Below, piece after piece: positions 28,157 through 38,688 of a stretch of 38,688 bases of DNA; the first letter of the stretch is position 1, and each line of letters begins with the position of its first letter. Both the position numbers and the translations under genes were made by a program. This DNA is from a virus: IMG/VR virus record IMGVR_UViG_3300024346_000198, positions 1 through 38,688 of that record; one strand, given 5' to 3'. Below the pieces are notes generated by a model, which had not been told where the DNA came from, ran no database searches, and was given only the letters and a program-made list of their open reading frames with translations.

Positions 28157-28629
28157 AAGTTTCCGACAAAGCCATTAAGATGATTCAGCATCACGAAGGG
28201 GTTAGGCAACGCCCCTATCGATGCCCTGCTAAGTTATGGACAATCGGGGTTGGTCATGTGATGTACCCCGAACATGGCAAACTTAAAATTGAAGAACGCG
28301 CAGGGTTGCCGTTACGCCCTGAAGATGAACGCATCTTTTCAATGGATGAAGTAAATGCAATTCTTAGATTTGACCTTGATAGATTTGAACGCGGCGTGGA
28401 AAAGTTTTGCCCCGTACCACTTACACAAGGTATGTTTGATGGGTTGGTATCTTTTTCTTTTAATGTGGGCTTGGGAACACTTCAAAGAAGTACGCTACGC
28501 CAAAAGTTATTACGCGGCGATAAAGAAGGCGCGGCAGAAGAACTATTGAAATATTGCATGGCGGGCGGCAAGGTTCTTAGGGGGCTACAGAACCGCCGCA
28601 TCGATGAACGCGCATTGTTTTTAGGCTAA
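28153..28629 (+). CDS. Endolysin, lysozyme of glycoside hydrolase family 24
   Basis: A 158-residue lysozyme that cleaves peptidoglycan between MurNAc and GlcNAc. The active site pattern E-8aa-(D/C)-5aa-T is present as E15, C24 and T30 (HHEGVRQRPYRCPAKLWTIG); Cys in the middle position is a known variant. GVGHV follows. The second lobe has FDGLVSFSFNVGLG (about 95-108) and ends GLQNRRIDERALFL. There is no signal peptide or SAR helix, so it needs the upstream holin for export. Its last nine bases overlap the convergent gene on the other strand. Confidence 0.93.
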   Translation: MKVSDKAIKMIQHHEGVRQRPYRCPAKLWTIGVGHVMYPEHGKLKIEERAGLPLRPEDERIFSMDEVNAILRFDLDRFERGVEKFCPVPLTQGMFDGLVSFSFNVGLGTLQRSTLRQKLLRGDKEGAAEELLKYCMAGGKVLRGLQNRRIDERALFLG

Positions 28630-28944
28630 CGGGATAGCCGCTTGCCATTCGCGTTCGTTGCGCCCCGTGTTTGATTTAACTGTATTACCCGTAAGCATCA
28701 CAAGCCCCAACACGCGCATTTCGTTCATGCGCCTTGCTACCTGATTGCCGTCAAGATTGGTACGCGCCGCAATGCCATCTTTGCCCAACGCACCATGCTT
28801 AATTAGGCAATCTAAAATAATTTGATGATGTTCAGATACAGATTCTTTGATTGATTCTGCCGCTTCAAAAGATGTTAGCGGGTCATTTGCCCGAACGCGT
28901 GGGAATTCGGGAAACATCTTGTTAAAAATATTTTTGTAGTTCAT
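28621..28944 (-). CDS. Winged-helix DNA-binding protein
   Basis: A 107-residue protein at the end of the leftward operon. The helix-turn-helix region is about residues 38-80: SEHHQIILDCLIKHGALGKD, then GIAARTNLDGNQVARRMNEM and a wing LGLVMLTGNTVKS. It is preceded by PLTSFEAAESIKES, a common start of small phage winged-helix proteins. It may act as a transcription regulator or assist replication and recombination. The ribosome site AGGAT precedes the ATG, and 70 bases separate it from the SSB-like gene. Its stop lies inside the lysozyme gene. Confidence 0.68.
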   Translation of the reverse strand: MNYKNIFNKMFPEFPRVRANDPLTSFEAAESIKESVSEHHQIILDCLIKHGALGKDGIAARTNLDGNQVARRMNEMRVLGLVMLTGNTVKSNTGRNEREWQAAIPLA

Positions 28945-30895: not shown

Positions 30896-30899
30896 TTGA

Positions 30900-30936
30900 T
30901 TTGCTTTCTAAAAGACCCCAAGAAGTTCGGGGCATG
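30900..30936 (-). promoter_or_regulatory. Conserved structured leader element, leftward operon
   Basis: Read on the minus strand: CATGCC, then a hairpin with CCCCGA pairing TTGGGG around ACTTC, then GGTCTTTTAGAAAGCAAA, four bases before the ATG at 30895. The CC of CATGCC and the GG of the box are the ends of the stem. The same layout, with a different but still paired stem (CCGT/ACGG), precedes the gene at 34015. CTTT-TAG-AAAG inside the box can form a second small hairpin. Confidence 0.65.
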
Positions 30937-30940
30937 ATTA

Positions 30941-30970
30941 AGTATAAGCGATTTCAACGCCATGTTTAAA
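30941..30970 (-). promoter_or_regulatory. Leftward early promoter
   Basis: On the minus strand TTTAAA (30970-30965, four of six to the -35 consensus), an 18-base spacer and TATACT (30946-30941). Transcription would start near 30934, right at the conserved leader element. The -35 lies within the left AT-rich direct repeat (30963). Confidence 0.5.
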
Positions 30971-30998
30971 ATATTTTCACAATTTGTTTAAATATTTG
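30963..30998. repeat. AT-rich direct repeats in the divergent control region
   Basis: TGTTTAAA begins at 30963 and again at 30985, 22 bp apart (about two helical turns), each followed by an AT-rich symmetric core (AAAATATTTT and AAATATTT). They lie between the leftward -10 and the regulator promoter, where repressor or Cro operators would be expected. Confidence 0.4.
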
Positions 30999-31004
30999 TA
31001 AAAT

Positions 31005-31020
31005 GTTGCTATGATGCAAC
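31005..31020. promoter_or_regulatory. Operator palindrome over the regulator's -10 box
   Basis: GTTGC-TATGAT-GCAAC: perfect 5-bp arms flank TATGAT (31010-31015), a -10 box with five of six consensus bases. The regulator's ATG at 31022 falls seven bases after the -10, where transcription should begin, and no Shine-Dalgarno is present, so the mRNA is probably leaderless. The same palindrome core (GTTGCTA-N4-GCAAC) occurs at 41-56. Confidence 0.6.
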
Positions 31021-31021
31021 T

Positions 31022-31204
31022 ATGAACAAAACACAAATAGATGACGATAAAGCCTTGATTGCCAAGTTAGGGGGGGCAACAATCCTATCTAAACGCCTTG
31101 GTTTTCAATCTGCCCAACGGGTACACAACTGGATGTATAGGGGAATACCCGCATCCGTTAAGTTGGCGCATCCTAAAATCTTTTTAAAAGGGTTACGCAA
31201 ATGA
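31022..31204 (+). CDS. Cro/YdaS-like helix-turn-helix regulator
   Basis: A 60-residue DNA-binding protein. Residues about 12-45 form a helix-turn-helix: ALIAKLGGATILSKRLGFQS, then AQRVHNWMYRGIPASVKLA, the pattern of Cro/YdaS-type proteins where the first helix ends in 'GG...lA..lG.s' and the recognition helix in 'v..W..rGIP'. It is the first gene of the rightward early operon, probably on a leaderless transcript, and a palindrome covers its promoter. Autoregulation is likely. It is too small for a CI-type repressor with an oligomerisation domain, consistent with a lytic-cycle switch. Confidence 0.78.
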   Translation: MNKTQIDDDKALIAKLGGATILSKRLGFQSAQRVHNWMYRGIPASVKLAHPKIFLKGLRK

Positions 31205-31398
31205 CAAAAATAGAAAAATATCTACATCACAAATCTTTGATGTTGGAACACCTAGCATTTGCGTATGCAAATCAATCGATGCAAGATTCTTTGTATCAAC
31301 TGATTTGCTACCACTTGCACAAAGATTACACGCAAGGTTATTATTATTTTATGACCCATCAGGAACGAAAAGATTTGCAAACGATGATGGTTCTTTGA
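31201..31398 (+). CDS. Unknown early protein (65 aa)
   Basis: A 65-residue protein rich in His, Tyr and Leu (EKYLHHKSLMLEHLAFAYAN, YQLICYHLHKDYTQGYYYFM), probably two or three helices. It overlaps the regulator gene by ATGA. No motif recognised. The promoter for the next transcript overlaps its end. Confidence 0.6.
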   Translation: MTKIEKYLHHKSLMLEHLAFAYANQSMQDSLYQLICYHLHKDYTQGYYYFMTHQERKDLQTMMVL

Positions 31399-31404
31399 TA
31401 TAAT
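31375..31404 (+). promoter_or_regulatory. Strong internal early promoter
   Basis: TTGCAA (31375-31380), an 18-base spacer and a perfect TATAAT (31399-31404). Transcription would start near 31411, at the first stem of the candidate structured RNA, about 90 bases before the next start codon. Confidence 0.6.
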
Positions 31405-31408
31405 TTTT

Positions 31409-31467
31409 ATACGCGGCTAGGGTAGCACCCGAAAAGACGATTCTTCACCGTTCTGCCATCAGCGTAT
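31409..31467 (+). ncRNA. Candidate structured leader RNA (three-way junction)
   Basis: Bases 31409-31414 (ATACGC) pair with 31462-31467 (GCGTAT), and GGC at 31415-31417 with GCC at 31455-31457, closing a junction. Inside it are GGGT-AGC-ACCC (31420-31430) and AGACG (31435-31439) pairing CG-T-(T)-CT (31449-31454, one bulge) around ATTCTTCAC. It follows a strong promoter and precedes the 31502 gene, which lacks an evident ribosome site. It matches no RNA family I can name; it could be a regulatory leader or a small RNA. Confidence 0.35.
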
Positions 31468-31501
31468 CTTGTGAAGTCAACCTATGAAGCATGGTTAAAA
31501 A

Positions 31502-31729
31502 ATGGCTACCCTTAGTCTAAAAAAGGCAAAACAACTTGCCGCGGAAAAACCCGTAAATAATTTATTGCATAAATATGCAGTTATGCGTCATGCGCGGCAT
31601 ACGCACAGTATTAGATTTACTTGTGTCCATGACACATTTGAAATTGCAAAAAAAGAAGCATTGCGATTACATAAAGAATATCCAAGCGAACGCTATTTAA
31701 TTGTTTCAATCCTTGATGGGGTTGAATAA
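31502..31729 (+). CDS. Unknown early protein (75 aa)
   Basis: A 75-residue basic protein: LKKAKQLAAEKPVNNLLHKY near the start, then HTHSIRFTCVHDTFEIAKKE and ALRLHKEYPSERYLIVSIL. The second half reads as strand-helix-strand with several His residues (HARHTH). It overlaps the initiator gene by one base. There is no clear Shine-Dalgarno sequence before the ATG, so the start is less certain, or its translation depends on the leader. Confidence 0.55.
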   Translation: MATLSLKKAKQLAAEKPVNNLLHKYAVMRHARHTHSIRFTCVHDTFEIAKKEALRLHKEYPSERYLIVSILDGVE

Positions 31730-32463
31730 TGCACTACTATCAACACCATATTGGTGACTTTATAAAAGCAACTGCACGGCTATCTGATGCTCAAGCAATG
31801 GGTTATTTACGTTTGTTATGGATGTATTACGATAGCGAAAAACCACTTAAATCTGATACAAAAATTCTTGCTTTTCAAATTGGCGCAACCGTAGAAGATA
31901 CAAAATTACTGTTAGAAAGTTTTTTTGTATTGTGCGAAAACGGTTGGCATCAAACTCGATGCGATAAAGAAATTGAAGATTACAGAGAATTTTTAAACAA
32001 AAAATCTAACGCGGGTAAAGCATCTGCTGAACGTAGGAAGAACAAGAGTTTAACAGATGTTCAACAGGTGTTCAACAGCAGTGCAACTGATGAGCAACTA
32101 ACCACTAACCAACAACCACTAACCACTAACCATAATTCCGTATCTAAAGATACGGGCGACAAGCCGCCCCTAACGCCTGATGAAATTATTTTTGGTTACG
32201 GTGTTCCATTGTTGACCAATGCGGGTGCTACCGATAAAAGCGCACGGTCGTTTCTTGGTAGCCTAAGAAAAGCGCATGGCGATGAAACCTTGGTAAACAC
32301 CCTGCGCGATTGCATCAGGGCTAAACCTATACAACCTTTGGAATGGTTAGCAAAGGCATTGCCGCCTGATGGCATAAAACCCAAACTTAACAAACAGGAA
32401 TCATTGGAAGCGTCAAACCGCGCCGTTGTTGAAAAACTATTGAAGAAAGAAGGTTTTGTATGA
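31729..32463 (+). CDS. Replication initiator-like protein, DUF1376/YdaU family
   Basis: A 244-residue protein. Residues 1-90 are the DUF1376 domain: MHYYQHHIGDFIKATARLSD, AQAMGYLRLLWMYYDSEKPL and CENGWHQTRCDKEIEDY, a winged-helix region used for origin binding. A Lys/Arg patch (KASAERRKNKS) follows, then a low-complexity Gln/Asn/Thr linker (about 108-140). The C-terminal half has FGYGVPLLTNAGATDKSARS and FLGSLRKAHGDETLVNTLRD. The linker DNA holds two sets of direct repeats and a hairpin, like the origin inside lambda O. It overlaps the next gene by ATGA. Confidence 0.8.
   Translation: MHYYQHHIGDFIKATARLSDAQAMGYLRLLWMYYDSEKPLKSDTKILAFQIGATVEDTKLLLESFFVLCENGWHQTRCDKEIEDYREFLNKKSNAGKASAERRKNKSLTDVQQVFNSSATDEQLTTNQQPLTTNHNSVSKDTGDKPPLTPDEIIFGYGVPLLTNAGATDKSARSFLGSLRKAHGDETLVNTLRDCIRAKPIQPLEWLAKALPPDGIKPKLNKQESLEASNRAVVEKLLKKEGFV
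32047..32101 (+). repeat. Five 11-bp iteron-like repeats
   Basis: Consecutive 11-base units start at 32047, 32058, 32069, 32080 and 32091: AGTTTAACAGA, TGTTCAACAGG, TGTTCAACAGC, AGTGCAACTGA, TGAGCAACTAA. The consensus is TGTTCAACAG with (C/T)AAC kept in all. Since 11 is not a multiple of three, the encoded peptide is not repetitive, pointing to a DNA-level role with sites one helical turn apart. Confidence 0.65.
32098..32132 (+). repeat. Five 7-bp repeats CTAACCA
   Basis: Heptamers begin at 32098, 32105, 32112, 32119 and 32126; four are exactly CTAACCA and the middle one is ACAACCA. They follow directly on the 11-bp set. The period again is not a multiple of three. Confidence 0.65.
32138..32155 (+). 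other. Perfect inverted repeat next to the iterons; origin candidate
   Basis: CCGTATC (32138-32144) and GATACGG (32149-32155) form a perfect 7-bp stem with a 4-base loop TAAA, six bases after the last heptamer. Together with the repeats at 32047-32132, inside the initiator gene, this makes 32047-32155 the best candidate for the replication origin. Confidence 0.55.
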
Positions 32464-33050
32464 ACGCAAATCAAAAAGCCAATTTTTACAAATTAGTTGG
32501 CGATGCCCTTGGCTACTGGAAACAGGATGTAAGCGAATTTACATTGAATGTTTGGTGGAACGGTTGCCAAGCCTTTGAGTTTGAACAAGTAGTTCAGGCA
32601 TTAAGCAACCATGCGACCGACCCCGACAAAGGGCACTTTGCGCCAAAGGTAGCCGATATTGTGCGTATCTTGGGCGGCACTAAAACCGACCGTTCTTTGC
32701 GTGAATGGGGGCGGGTGTATGAGGCTATGAGTTCGGTTGGGGCTTATAGCGATGTTGATTTTGGCGATAGCGCAACCCATGCAAGTATTCGGGACATGGG
32801 TGGATGGGCAAAAGTTTGCCGCACCGAAACGAAAGAATTAAGTTATTTACAACATCGGTTTTGTGAACTGTACAAAGCGCACGATGGGCAAACAAGCCAT
32901 GTACCCGCTTTGATGGGCGATAGGTCGCCTGATGAAATGTTTAAGAAAAAGGGCTTGGCTTTGCCTAAACCTAGACTGATTGCAGGGGGCAACCCAAAAA
33001 AGCCGCTTGAATTGCATACCCAAATTACGCAAGCATTGGGGTACAAATGA
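32460..33050 (+). CDS. Replication-associated protein, possible helicase-loader-like role (196 aa)
   Basis: A 196-residue protein after the initiator. The N-terminal KANFYKLVGDALGYWKQDVS, LNVWWNGCQAFEFEQVVQAL and FAPKVADIVRILGG form a helical domain of a type I associate with DUF6475-like phage replication proteins. The middle MGGWAKVCRTETKELSYLQH and RFCELYKAHD follow, with a basic C-terminal tail. By position it corresponds to lambda P or DnaC-type helicase loaders, but there is no Walker motif, so the role is inferred from context. Overlaps both neighbours by ATGA. Confidence 0.55.
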   Translation: MNANQKANFYKLVGDALGYWKQDVSEFTLNVWWNGCQAFEFEQVVQALSNHATDPDKGHFAPKVADIVRILGGTKTDRSLREWGRVYEAMSSVGAYSDVDFGDSATHASIRDMGGWAKVCRTETKELSYLQHRFCELYKAHDGQTSHVPALMGDRSPDEMFKKKGLALPKPRLIAGGNPKKPLELHTQITQALGYK

Positions 33051-33169
33051 CACACGAAATGGCTATGCGAATATTGGACAGGGTGCGGGATGGGGTTAGT
33101 TACCCACAATGGGTAATCCGCAAAGCCTTGGAATTAACTGGCGACATTGATGGACATGGAACACTTTAA
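33047..33169 (+). CDS. Small unknown protein (40 aa)
   Basis: A 40-residue frame starting within the stop of the preceding gene (ATGA). The sequence THEMAMRILDRVRDGVSYPQ and WVIRKALELTGDIDGHGTL reads as two helices and resembles short proteins I recall next to replication genes of Betaproteobacteria phages. It ends 20 bases inside the next gene. Confidence 0.55.
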   Translation: MTHEMAMRILDRVRDGVSYPQWVIRKALELTGDIDGHGTL

Positions 33170-33356
33170 GGATTGCGAAGCGCGGGAATGGATTGCCCGC
33201 TACCGCAAAAAGCATTTAGAAGAAGGTAAGGGCGAAGCAATCGAATGGTGGGCAAAAACTATTAAAGAAATTGCCGCCAAACGGGGGCAAAAGGTTGCCG
33301 ATGATTTAAAGCGCAGAATGAATGAACAAAAGGATTTAAATGCGATACGCCGCTAG
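33150..33356 (+). CDS. Unknown charged helical protein (68 aa)
   Basis: A 68-residue, very charged protein: FKDCEAREWIARYRKKHLEE, then AIEWWAKTIKEIAAKRGQKV and ADDLKRRMNEQKD. It should be almost fully helical. The start is chosen at the ATG at 33150; a TTG one codon upstream and an ATG at 33156 are also possible. It overlaps genes on both sides. No family assigned. Confidence 0.6.
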   Translation: MDMEHFKDCEAREWIARYRKKHLEEGKGEAIEWWAKTIKEIAAKRGQKVADDLKRRMNEQKDLNAIRR

Positions 33357-33606
33357 GGTTGATGCCAACCAAGAACAGATTGTTAGCGCACTACGCGCCG
33401 CGGGTGCTTATGTTTGGATTATTGGGCTACCCGTTGACCTACTAGTTGGTTACCGCGGGCATACATTCTTGGTAGAGATAAAAAGCACGGTTAAAGGGCG
33501 TTTAACGGGGCTACAAGCCGACTTCTTTAAGAATTGGGGCGGGAGTACCTTGTGCCGCGTTGACACGCCTGAAGCGGCTTTAAGAATGATTGGAGTAATT
33601 AAATGA
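33340..33606 (+). CDS. VRR-NUC-like PD-(D/E)XK nuclease
   Basis: An 88-residue compact nuclease. The first helix RVDANQEQIVSALRAAGAYV, then LPVDLLVGYRGHTFLVEIKS (about 30-49) holds the catalytic Asp of PVDLL and the Glu-x-Lys of VEIKS; the tail LTGLQADFFKNWGGSTLCRV and TPEAALRMIG matches small phage VRR-NUC proteins. These act on branched or recombination DNA. The family's minimum length is met. It overlaps the next gene by ATGA. Confidence 0.85.
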   Translation: MRYAARVDANQEQIVSALRAAGAYVWIIGLPVDLLVGYRGHTFLVEIKSTVKGRLTGLQADFFKNWGGSTLCRVDTPEAALRMIGVIK

Positions 33607-33935
33607 ACGCACCATACAAAGCAATTGATTTCATATTGGAAAACGCGGCTAAATTTGCCAAGGCTAAAAGCGAACGCATATACCTTGATGAATTTAGACG
33701 GGTTAAACGCGCTTTGCTGATGAAGCAAGCAATGGAAATGGGTTACGAAAGCGCGGTAGCACAGGAACGCGAAGCCTACGCCCATTCAGAATATGAAGAA
33801 TTGTTAAGAGGGTTAGCCGTAGCCGTGGAACAGGAAGAATTGTTACGTTGGAAATTAACCGCGGCTACTTTAAAAACGGAAATATGGCGAACCGAATCGG
33901 CTAACGAACGCAATGGCATAAAAGCAACGGAATAA
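33603..33935 (+). CDS. Unknown helical phage protein (110 aa)
   Basis: A 110-residue protein, nearly all helical: IDFILENAAKFAKAKSERIY, LDEFRRVKRALLMKQAMEMG and YEELLRGLAVAVEQEELLRW followed by a WKLTAATLKTEIWRTESA helix. Proteins with this arrangement are recurrent in phages beside replication genes and may help bind DNA or a polymerase, but I know no tested function. It ends the first part of the early operon; a new promoter follows. Confidence 0.6.
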   Translation: MNAPYKAIDFILENAAKFAKAKSERIYLDEFRRVKRALLMKQAMEMGYESAVAQEREAYAHSEYEELLRGLAVAVEQEELLRWKLTAATLKTEIWRTESANERNGIKATE

Positions 33936-33943
33936 ACAATTTG

Positions 33944-33973
33944 TTGAAAAAACTGTATTAGTAATCTTATAAT
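33944..33973 (+). promoter_or_regulatory. Promoter of the second rightward operon
   Basis: TTGAAA (33944-33949), 18 bases, TATAAT (33968-33973). Transcription should start near 33980, at the beginning of the conserved leader element. Confidence 0.65.
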
Positions 33974-33978
33974 TTAAC

Positions 33979-34012
33979 CATGCCGTTACATCACGGTCTT
34001 TTAGAAAGCAAA
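33979..34012 (+). promoter_or_regulatory. Conserved structured leader element, rightward operon
   Basis: CATGCC (33979-33984), a hairpin CCGT-TACATC-ACGG (33983-33996), then GGTCTTTTAGAAAGCAAA (33995-34012), two bases before the ATG at 34015. The flanking words and the 18-base box are identical to those at 30900-30936 on the other strand, while the stem differs but still pairs. Confidence 0.65.
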
Positions 34013-34014
34013 CA

Positions 34015-34107
34015 ATGTGGCCCTTTCCCCCGTTTCCAAACCCAAAAGATAAGGGGCGTAAAACCCCCAAATTCAACCCTGATAACTTTGAGGATTCGCC
34101 CGTATGA
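34015..34107 (+). CDS. Proline-rich small protein (30 aa)
   Basis: A 30-residue frame starting two bases after the conserved leader box and overlapping the next start by ATGA. The sequence MWPFPPFPNPKDKGRKTPKF is rich in Pro, Phe and Lys, with an acidic end. Its placement mirrors the 56-residue gene at 30895 behind the other leader copy. It may be a leader peptide that couples translation to the next gene. Confidence 0.55.
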   Translation: MWPFPPFPNPKDKGRKTPKFNPDNFEDSPV

Positions 34108-35056: not shown

Positions 35057-35136
35057 GCAAACAATGGGGATTGATATTCTTGTTTCTGATTGCCTTTTGG
35101 GGTTGGGTTATTTTTATCCTAAAGGGCGCAATATGA
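35053..35136 (+). CDS. Tiny membrane protein (27 aa)
   Basis: A 27-residue frame with ATGA overlaps on both sides. After MSKQWG almost all residues are hydrophobic ([17 protein letters not shown]), then KGAI: a single membrane helix. Like the 30-residue protein at 30688, it is a micropeptide of the early region, possibly acting on the host membrane or its pumps. Confidence 0.5.
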
Positions 35137-35315
35137 TGCCGCAAATAGACATTGGCGCACGGTTTGCCAATCACAAATTTAAACTTTGTACCAAATGCGA
35201 TATTGATAAACCGCCCGAAGGCGGGATAGACATAGGGCATAAATGGATTTGCCAATCATGTTGGAACAAGCGCATTACAGGCAAATACCTTAGACAAAAC
35301 AGTAAAAATGCGTAA
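35133..35315 (+). CDS. Zinc-ribbon small protein (60 aa)
   Basis: A 60-residue protein with CTKC at about 19-22 and CQSC at about 40-43, spaced as a four-cysteine zinc ribbon, with WICQSCWNKRITGKYLRQNS at the end. I chose the ATG at 35133, which overlaps the stop of the micropeptide gene; an upstream ATG at 35064 would read through that gene in another frame. Probably a nucleic-acid- or protein-binding factor. Confidence 0.62.
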   Translation: MMPQIDIGARFANHKFKLCTKCDIDKPPEGGIDIGHKWICQSCWNKRITGKYLRQNSKNA

Positions 35316-38658: not shown

Positions 38659-38688
38659 AAAGTAAAATATTTTGGAACGGTTGAAAAG

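Follow-up and report, generated by a model that had tools for sequence, protein, structure and literature searches.

Hairpins in 5' leaders are known from single genes such as T7 gene 10, in which a hairpin in the 5' leader is followed by a U-rich ribosome-binding site (RBS). In cluster K mycobacteriophages, the 13-bp SAS, GGGATAGGAGCCC, is located just before start codons, and for the ESAS of these phages the authors judged that no RNA hairpin was formed (PMC3203893). The 5' hairpin of T4 gene 32 is cited in PMC8948821 as stabilising its mRNA, and the hairpin of RiboJ, an engineered insulator, was suggested to expose the RBS and to stabilise the message (PMC6206723). While 5'-leader hairpins as such are already known, what appears to be new in the phages described here is a hairpin cassette that is family-wide.

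Two copies of the leader element in one viral record

The window analysed here is the whole of IMG/VR record IMGVR_UViG_3300024346_000198, 38,688 nucleotides in length. The 18-mer GGTCTTTTAGAAAGCAAA, originally predicted to precede two genes, occurred exactly twice in the window, at 30900-30917 on the minus strand and at 33995-34012 on the plus strand. Dinucleotide shuffles gave 0.06 matches at up to 3 mismatches and none reached 2, so that two occurrences of this 18-mer greatly exceed the chance expectation. Both copies had the same order of TATA(A/C)T, 5-6 nt, ATGCC, hairpin, GG, TCTTTTAGAAAGCAAA, 2-4 nt and ATG. Copy 1 reads TATACT-TAATC-ATG-CCCCGAACTTCTTGGGG-TCTTTTAGAAAGCAAA-TCAA-ATG, and copy 2 reads TATAAT-TTAACC-ATG-CCGTTACATCACGG-TCTTTTAGAAAGCAAA-CA-ATG. 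Their parts are listed below, together with the matches of R1, a covariance model built from 50 distinct copies of the element.

30964-30969, minus strand: copy 1, weak -35 TTAAAC, read from the sequence
30941-30946, minus strand: copy 1, -10 box TATACT, read from the sequence (R1 match 30900-30946, 54.8 bits)
30933-30935, minus strand: copy 1, predicted transcript 5' end AUG with +1 at the A at 30935, from the -10 spacing of relatives
30916-30932, minus strand: copy 1, leader hairpin CCCCGA-ACTTC-TTGGGG, 6 pairs including one G.U, -7.4 kcal/mol
30896-30915, minus strand: copy 1, TCTTTT as U-rich spacer, purines AGAAAG at the SD position, then a spacer up to the start codon
30725-30895, minus strand: copy 1, first gene of the unit, 56 aa (MTNCNWMV...)
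33944-33973, plus strand: copy 2, promoter TTGAAA-N18-TATAAT, read from the sequence
33980-33982, plus strand: copy 2, predicted transcript 5' end AUG with +1 at the A at 33980, from the -10 spacing of relatives
33983-33996, plus strand: copy 2, leader hairpin CCGT-TACATC-ACGG, 4 pairs (R1 match 33968-34012, 51.5 bits)
33997-34014, plus strand: copy 2, TCTTTT as U-rich spacer, then AGAAAG and a spacer up to the start codon, read from the sequence
34015-34107, plus strand: copy 2, first gene of the unit, 30 codons (MWPFPPFPNPKDKGRK...), overlapping the next ORF at 34104

Most of the original prediction for this region was borne out. The two stems differ and both pair, CCCCGA/TTGGGG forming 6 pairs around the loop ACTTC and CCGT/ACGG forming 4 pairs around TACATC, the latter being weak (about -2.5 kcal/mol). 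Each copy is followed by a very small first gene, of 56 and 30 codons. The plus-strand promoter is TTGAAA-N18-TATAAT, and on the minus strand TATACT is clear but its -35 is weak. The two units do point apart, yet the description of divergent operons needs amending, as a third plus-strand operon with a different leader (31022-33935) lies between them. A broken third copy had been suspected at 2-22 (TGTCTTTTCGCAGAAAGGCAAA), but ATGCC, a comparable hairpin and a promoter were all missing from this site, and across the entire record the covariance model found copies 1 and 2 only.

Other features were observed in the window. The 31022 ORF of the third early operon is weakly YdaS-like, the promoter of this operon has no leader element, and a palindrome at 31003-31018 (GTTGCTATGATGCAAC) over its likely -10 is a probable repressor operator. 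Between two small early genes, 31410-31477 on the plus strand gave a full-length, sub-threshold match to the int-alpA RNA (RF02996; 26.6 bits against a cut-off of 35.8, E 0.012). If the record is circular, 38680-38688 and 1-8 form a perfect inverted repeat across its ends, GAAAAG-TGT-CTTTTC.

The element is widespread in uncultured phages

The exact 18-mer was found in 13 viral contigs, two of which (L005 and L009) are probably chance matches, and with looser patterns 52 and at least 119 stretches were obtained. Protein-coding lookalikes were set aside on their reading frame: L005, L023, L028, L029, L034, L036 and L053, reading AMPPGGLLESK, and likewise L018, L021, L045 and L048. In three sets of viral loci R1 found 95, 152 and 7 matches, respectively, and its best score in 60 bacterial loci pre-selected for a similar pattern was 22.1 bits. 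Altogether, 244 copies with 100 distinct hairpins were parsed on about 130 viral contigs, and among 128 contigs counted, 46 carried one copy, 59 carried two, and the remainder carried three to six. The phages with the element were lambda-like siphoviruses and P22-like podoviruses.

In the data sampled, the element is restricted to viruses. A pattern search of 399 Burkholderiales genomes gave 3 matches, compared with 2 in the backward control, and R1 found none in 29 of these genomes when the best 150 first-look candidates were scored per genome. Scanning genome contigs with a loose pattern returned mostly chance matches among the matches listed. No copy was found in Methylophilaceae phage P19250A, Rhodoferax phage P26218 or four Manatee Spring genomes (two incomplete), and when some of the elements were compared with INPHARED by blastn, only chance-level matches were obtained. 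No Rfam 15 family reached the gathering threshold in the window or in 8 relatives, and in the window the element itself was not covered by any match, even at E values as high as 10. An open-access literature search found no description of the leader element.

Anatomy of the leader

The copies shared a layout of a sigma70-type promoter, AUGCC, a hairpin of 10-22 nt, UCUU(UU), SD-position purines and AUG. The -10 was TATAAT in 190 of the 244 copies and the word after the hairpin was TCTT in 232 and TCTTTT in 200, frequencies that are upper bounds because TATAAT, ATGCC and TCTTTT were among some of the search words. Variants of TCTTTT included TCTTAT, TCTTAA, TCTAAA and ACTACT. TTG was present at the -35 spacing in 193 copies and at a control distance in 39. 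Between the -10 and the A of ATG there were 5-7 nt in 230/244, which suggested that the transcript begins at AUGCC; +1 is thus probably the A of AUGCC, with 2-3 nt preceding the hairpin, which would begin at about nt 3-4. In 237 of 241 copies the hairpin ended 16-21 nt upstream of ATG, regardless of its length. The purines, mostly 6-9 nt before ATG, formed either an ordinary SD or the AGAAAG seen in the window. What had been described as a single 18-base box is better read as a U-rich spacer followed by a purine stretch at the SD position. Most relatives have TCTTTT and AGGAGG or AAGGAAA at the position of the box, so its identity between the window copies is a subtype feature.

Reading the 5' AUG as the start of a leaderless peptide was rejected, as ATG is changed to ACG in 8 copies, ATGCCCTAA, TAG or TGA is read in many copies, and hairpin length breaks the frame.

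A GC hairpin with a U-run might also be an intrinsic terminator or attenuator opening each transcript, and GGGGTCTTTT does look like the tail of one; L301 contains a terminator-like site built in this way. However, the copies lack the hallmark of intrinsic terminators, a strong GC hairpin with a U-run immediately behind it: the run is interrupted in about 18% of copies (44/244) and the stems often have only 4 pairs. The hairpin, moreover, lies between promoter and SD, and its distance from ATG is fixed in front of many gene families. We consider a terminator very improbable.

Stems are conserved through pairing

Among the 50 distinct copies, 90.8% of stem cells were paired, compared with 78.4% after shuffling, and none of 500 shuffles was as high; these counts include related sequences and differ from a formal covariation statistic. 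Each of the five stem pairs showed changes on both sides, and pair 3 was paired in 50/50 copies with six pair types. Because searching with CC...GG had in part imposed the first two pairs, pairing was tested twice more with different search words. Contigs found through the promoter and ATGCC alone had the hairpin in every complete one, and among contigs found through the box alone, L293 and L184 carried UUCCAA-ACUUC-UUGGAA. L293 represents the copy 1 locus, with an identical box, an identical 56-aa protein and near-identical flanks; compared with CCCCGA/UUGGGG in the window, its UUCCAA/UUGGAA stem has two C-G pairs replaced by U-A and one G.U replaced by A-U. A third relative with the copy 1 gene (L240) has the stem CCCUGA/UCGGGG. 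Relatives were also checked for a retained box with lost pairing, and pairing was retained.

The same comparisons bear on whether the repeat is a DNA palindrome, bound as double-stranded DNA in an operator or extended promoter. Tight coupling of the element to TATAAT and the predicted +1 would suit such a site, but its stem sequence is free to vary and promoter-less copies precede start codons. Among the distinct hairpins, pairs 3-4 were G.U 33 times and A.C 9 times; such G.U pairs break DNA symmetry, and their excess points to pairing in the mRNA strand. We regard the DNA reading as very improbable.

The stem is conserved through pairing and not through sequence, as in 5' mRNA-stabilising leader hairpins, and the predicted RNA-level element with a kept fold and changing stems is supported by hundreds of relatives. 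Judged by this pattern of pairing, the leader hairpin is a real RNA element, and apparently an undescribed one.

Genes and phages served by the element

The first genes after the hairpin fell into 63 families with 192 distinct proteins, mostly small and of unknown function. A single family could have as many as ten hairpins, and many families could share one. This swapping of hairpins among 63 families suggests a general control that is not gene-specific. The first-gene family of copy 2 also follows the hairpin in relatives, where it comprises 8 distinct proteins. In the copy 1 unit, an Erf-like annealing protein and a RecE-like exonuclease follow the first gene (30438-29237, minus strand).

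The terminase of the window is shared by its relatives at 74-99%, and the nearest isolate by terminase was P19250A, at 60%. The element-bearing G436, G010 and their relatives have P22-like portals and terminases and share the Erf/RecE-like early genes with the window. These shared early genes, despite other structural genes, indicate that the element travels with the early region across structural lineages.

Six related contigs had a further, promoter-less copy within an operon, immediately 3' of a stop codon:

L011, 4304-4586 (also in L008, L017, L019, L024 and L026): a unit with two leader elements, of which the second lacks a promoter and adjoins the stop codon of the first gene

Such copies count against antitermination by a nut- or put-like site, at which RNA polymerase would be modified shortly after leaving the promoter. 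The hairpin is promoter-proximal, often with a 5-nt loop, and the adjoining GGUCUUU(U) is loosely boxA-like. In a lambda-type nut site, though, boxA lies 5' of boxB, and here the hairpin precedes UCUU in both window copies and in the R1 matches; compared with the boxA word, the adjoining word is itself not boxA, and its UUU is not always present (UCUAAACG, ACUACUAG). RBS and start codon come straight after it, and closely spaced promoters on the same strand each have a copy, for example in L006, where they are 400-600 bp apart. The window proteins scanned included no recognised N-like protein, which is weak evidence. Antitermination is accordingly improbable. Among the functions originally proposed, the translation-related leader fits the geometry best and the nut-like site is disfavoured.

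A different possibility is that a phage or host RNA-binding protein reads the stem-loop beside the RBS and jointly switches translation or stability of the genes. The loop was ANNYC in 30/36 pentaloops, the ATG and TCTT flanks were near-invariant, promoter-less intercistronic copies exist, and placement before 63 gene families resembles a regulon. On the other hand, conservation of loop and flanks is inflated by pattern seeding and kinship, and there is no clear reader: only two families, the RecE-like exonuclease and a possible winged-helix protein, occurred in all 7 element-bearing phages and in at most 1 of 6 controls. We hold such a reader to be a tentative alternative and rather unlikely. 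A more specific version, in which a dedicated factor would recognise the ANNYC-loop hairpin with AUG/UCUU and selectively protect or translate phage mRNAs during takeover, with stems free, perhaps favoured, to differ, is still more doubtful. None of 146 within-contig copy pairs shared the same hairpin, where 2.9 were expected (P about 0.045).

The possible winged-helix protein is encoded at 28621-28944 on the minus strand; it is small, belongs to phrog_1123 (7/7 element-bearing phages, 1/6 controls), has Pfam matches below cut-off and is a candidate regulator. An 83-aa protein at 35064-35315 on the plus strand represents a family found in 5/7 element phages and 0/6 controls, the longest member of which shows a CxxC...CxxC pattern.

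A proposed protective and insulating leader

The reading we favour, with a probability of roughly 0.55, is that the element is a modular 5' hairpin that protects and insulates phage messages and keeps the RBS open, a function that we infer from sequence. Host-type RNA polymerase would initiate at the A of AUGCC, as the -10 spacing suggests. The first ~20-25 nt would fold into a small self-contained hairpin with 2-3 free 5' nt, and a short spacer rich in U would lead from it to the SD position and the start codon. Most likely, the hairpin would hinder 5'-end-dependent decay by shielding the triphosphate end and stop upstream RNA from pairing with the RBS, and the U-rich spacer may aid 30S/S1 binding. 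The whole would form a portable cassette of promoter and protected RBS, shuffled ahead of many small early genes.

Computed RBS openness was 0.653 with the native hairpin, 0.576 with a shuffled one and 0.643 with the hairpin removed, and was higher with the native hairpin in 160/192. In this model the hairpin would act as a neutral spacer where random sequence would interfere, as would any local hairpin, which is support for insulation and not proof. Several observations speak against protection. In the promoter-less copies of six relatives, 5'-end protection would need processing, and some stems are weak, such as the CCGT/ACGG of copy 2. The ANNYC loop and near-invariant AUG/UCUU also exceed the needs of a plain protective hairpin, although part of this is ascertainment.

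The element can be seen as a natural, much-replicated expression part, with one promoter-hairpin-RBS layout before dozens of small phage gene families, in phages whose head genes are unrelated. It could be used to locate early small genes and likely transcript starts in uncultured phages, and the about 100 hairpins provide a natural library for testing 5'-end protection and RBS insulation. It may also offer a handle on how element-bearing phages favour their own messages.

Comparison with known systems

Like a lambda nut site (boxA-boxB), the element has a small promoter-near hairpin beside a UCUU word, but the order is reversed, the box is different, and the element ends at the start codon. 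It shares with RiboJ a hairpin between promoter and RBS; here, in contrast, there is no ribozyme and the hairpin lies at the predicted native transcript start. The T4 gene 32 leader and the ompA 5' UTR likewise have a 5'-leader hairpin followed by the RBS and would act alike. These two and T7 gene 10 are single-gene leaders, whereas the element is a family-wide cassette with variable stems, an ANNYC-type loop and recurrent AUG/UCUU words. The nearest analogue is the ESAS of cluster K mycobacteriophages. Both SAS/ESAS and the present element are short repeated phage elements that lie just before the start codons of numerous small genes, have an inverted repeat upstream, and are absent or rare in the host. 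They differ in that the conserved words here are ATGCC and GGTCTT, not GGGATAGGAGCCC, and that the arms here are 4-8 nt and covary.
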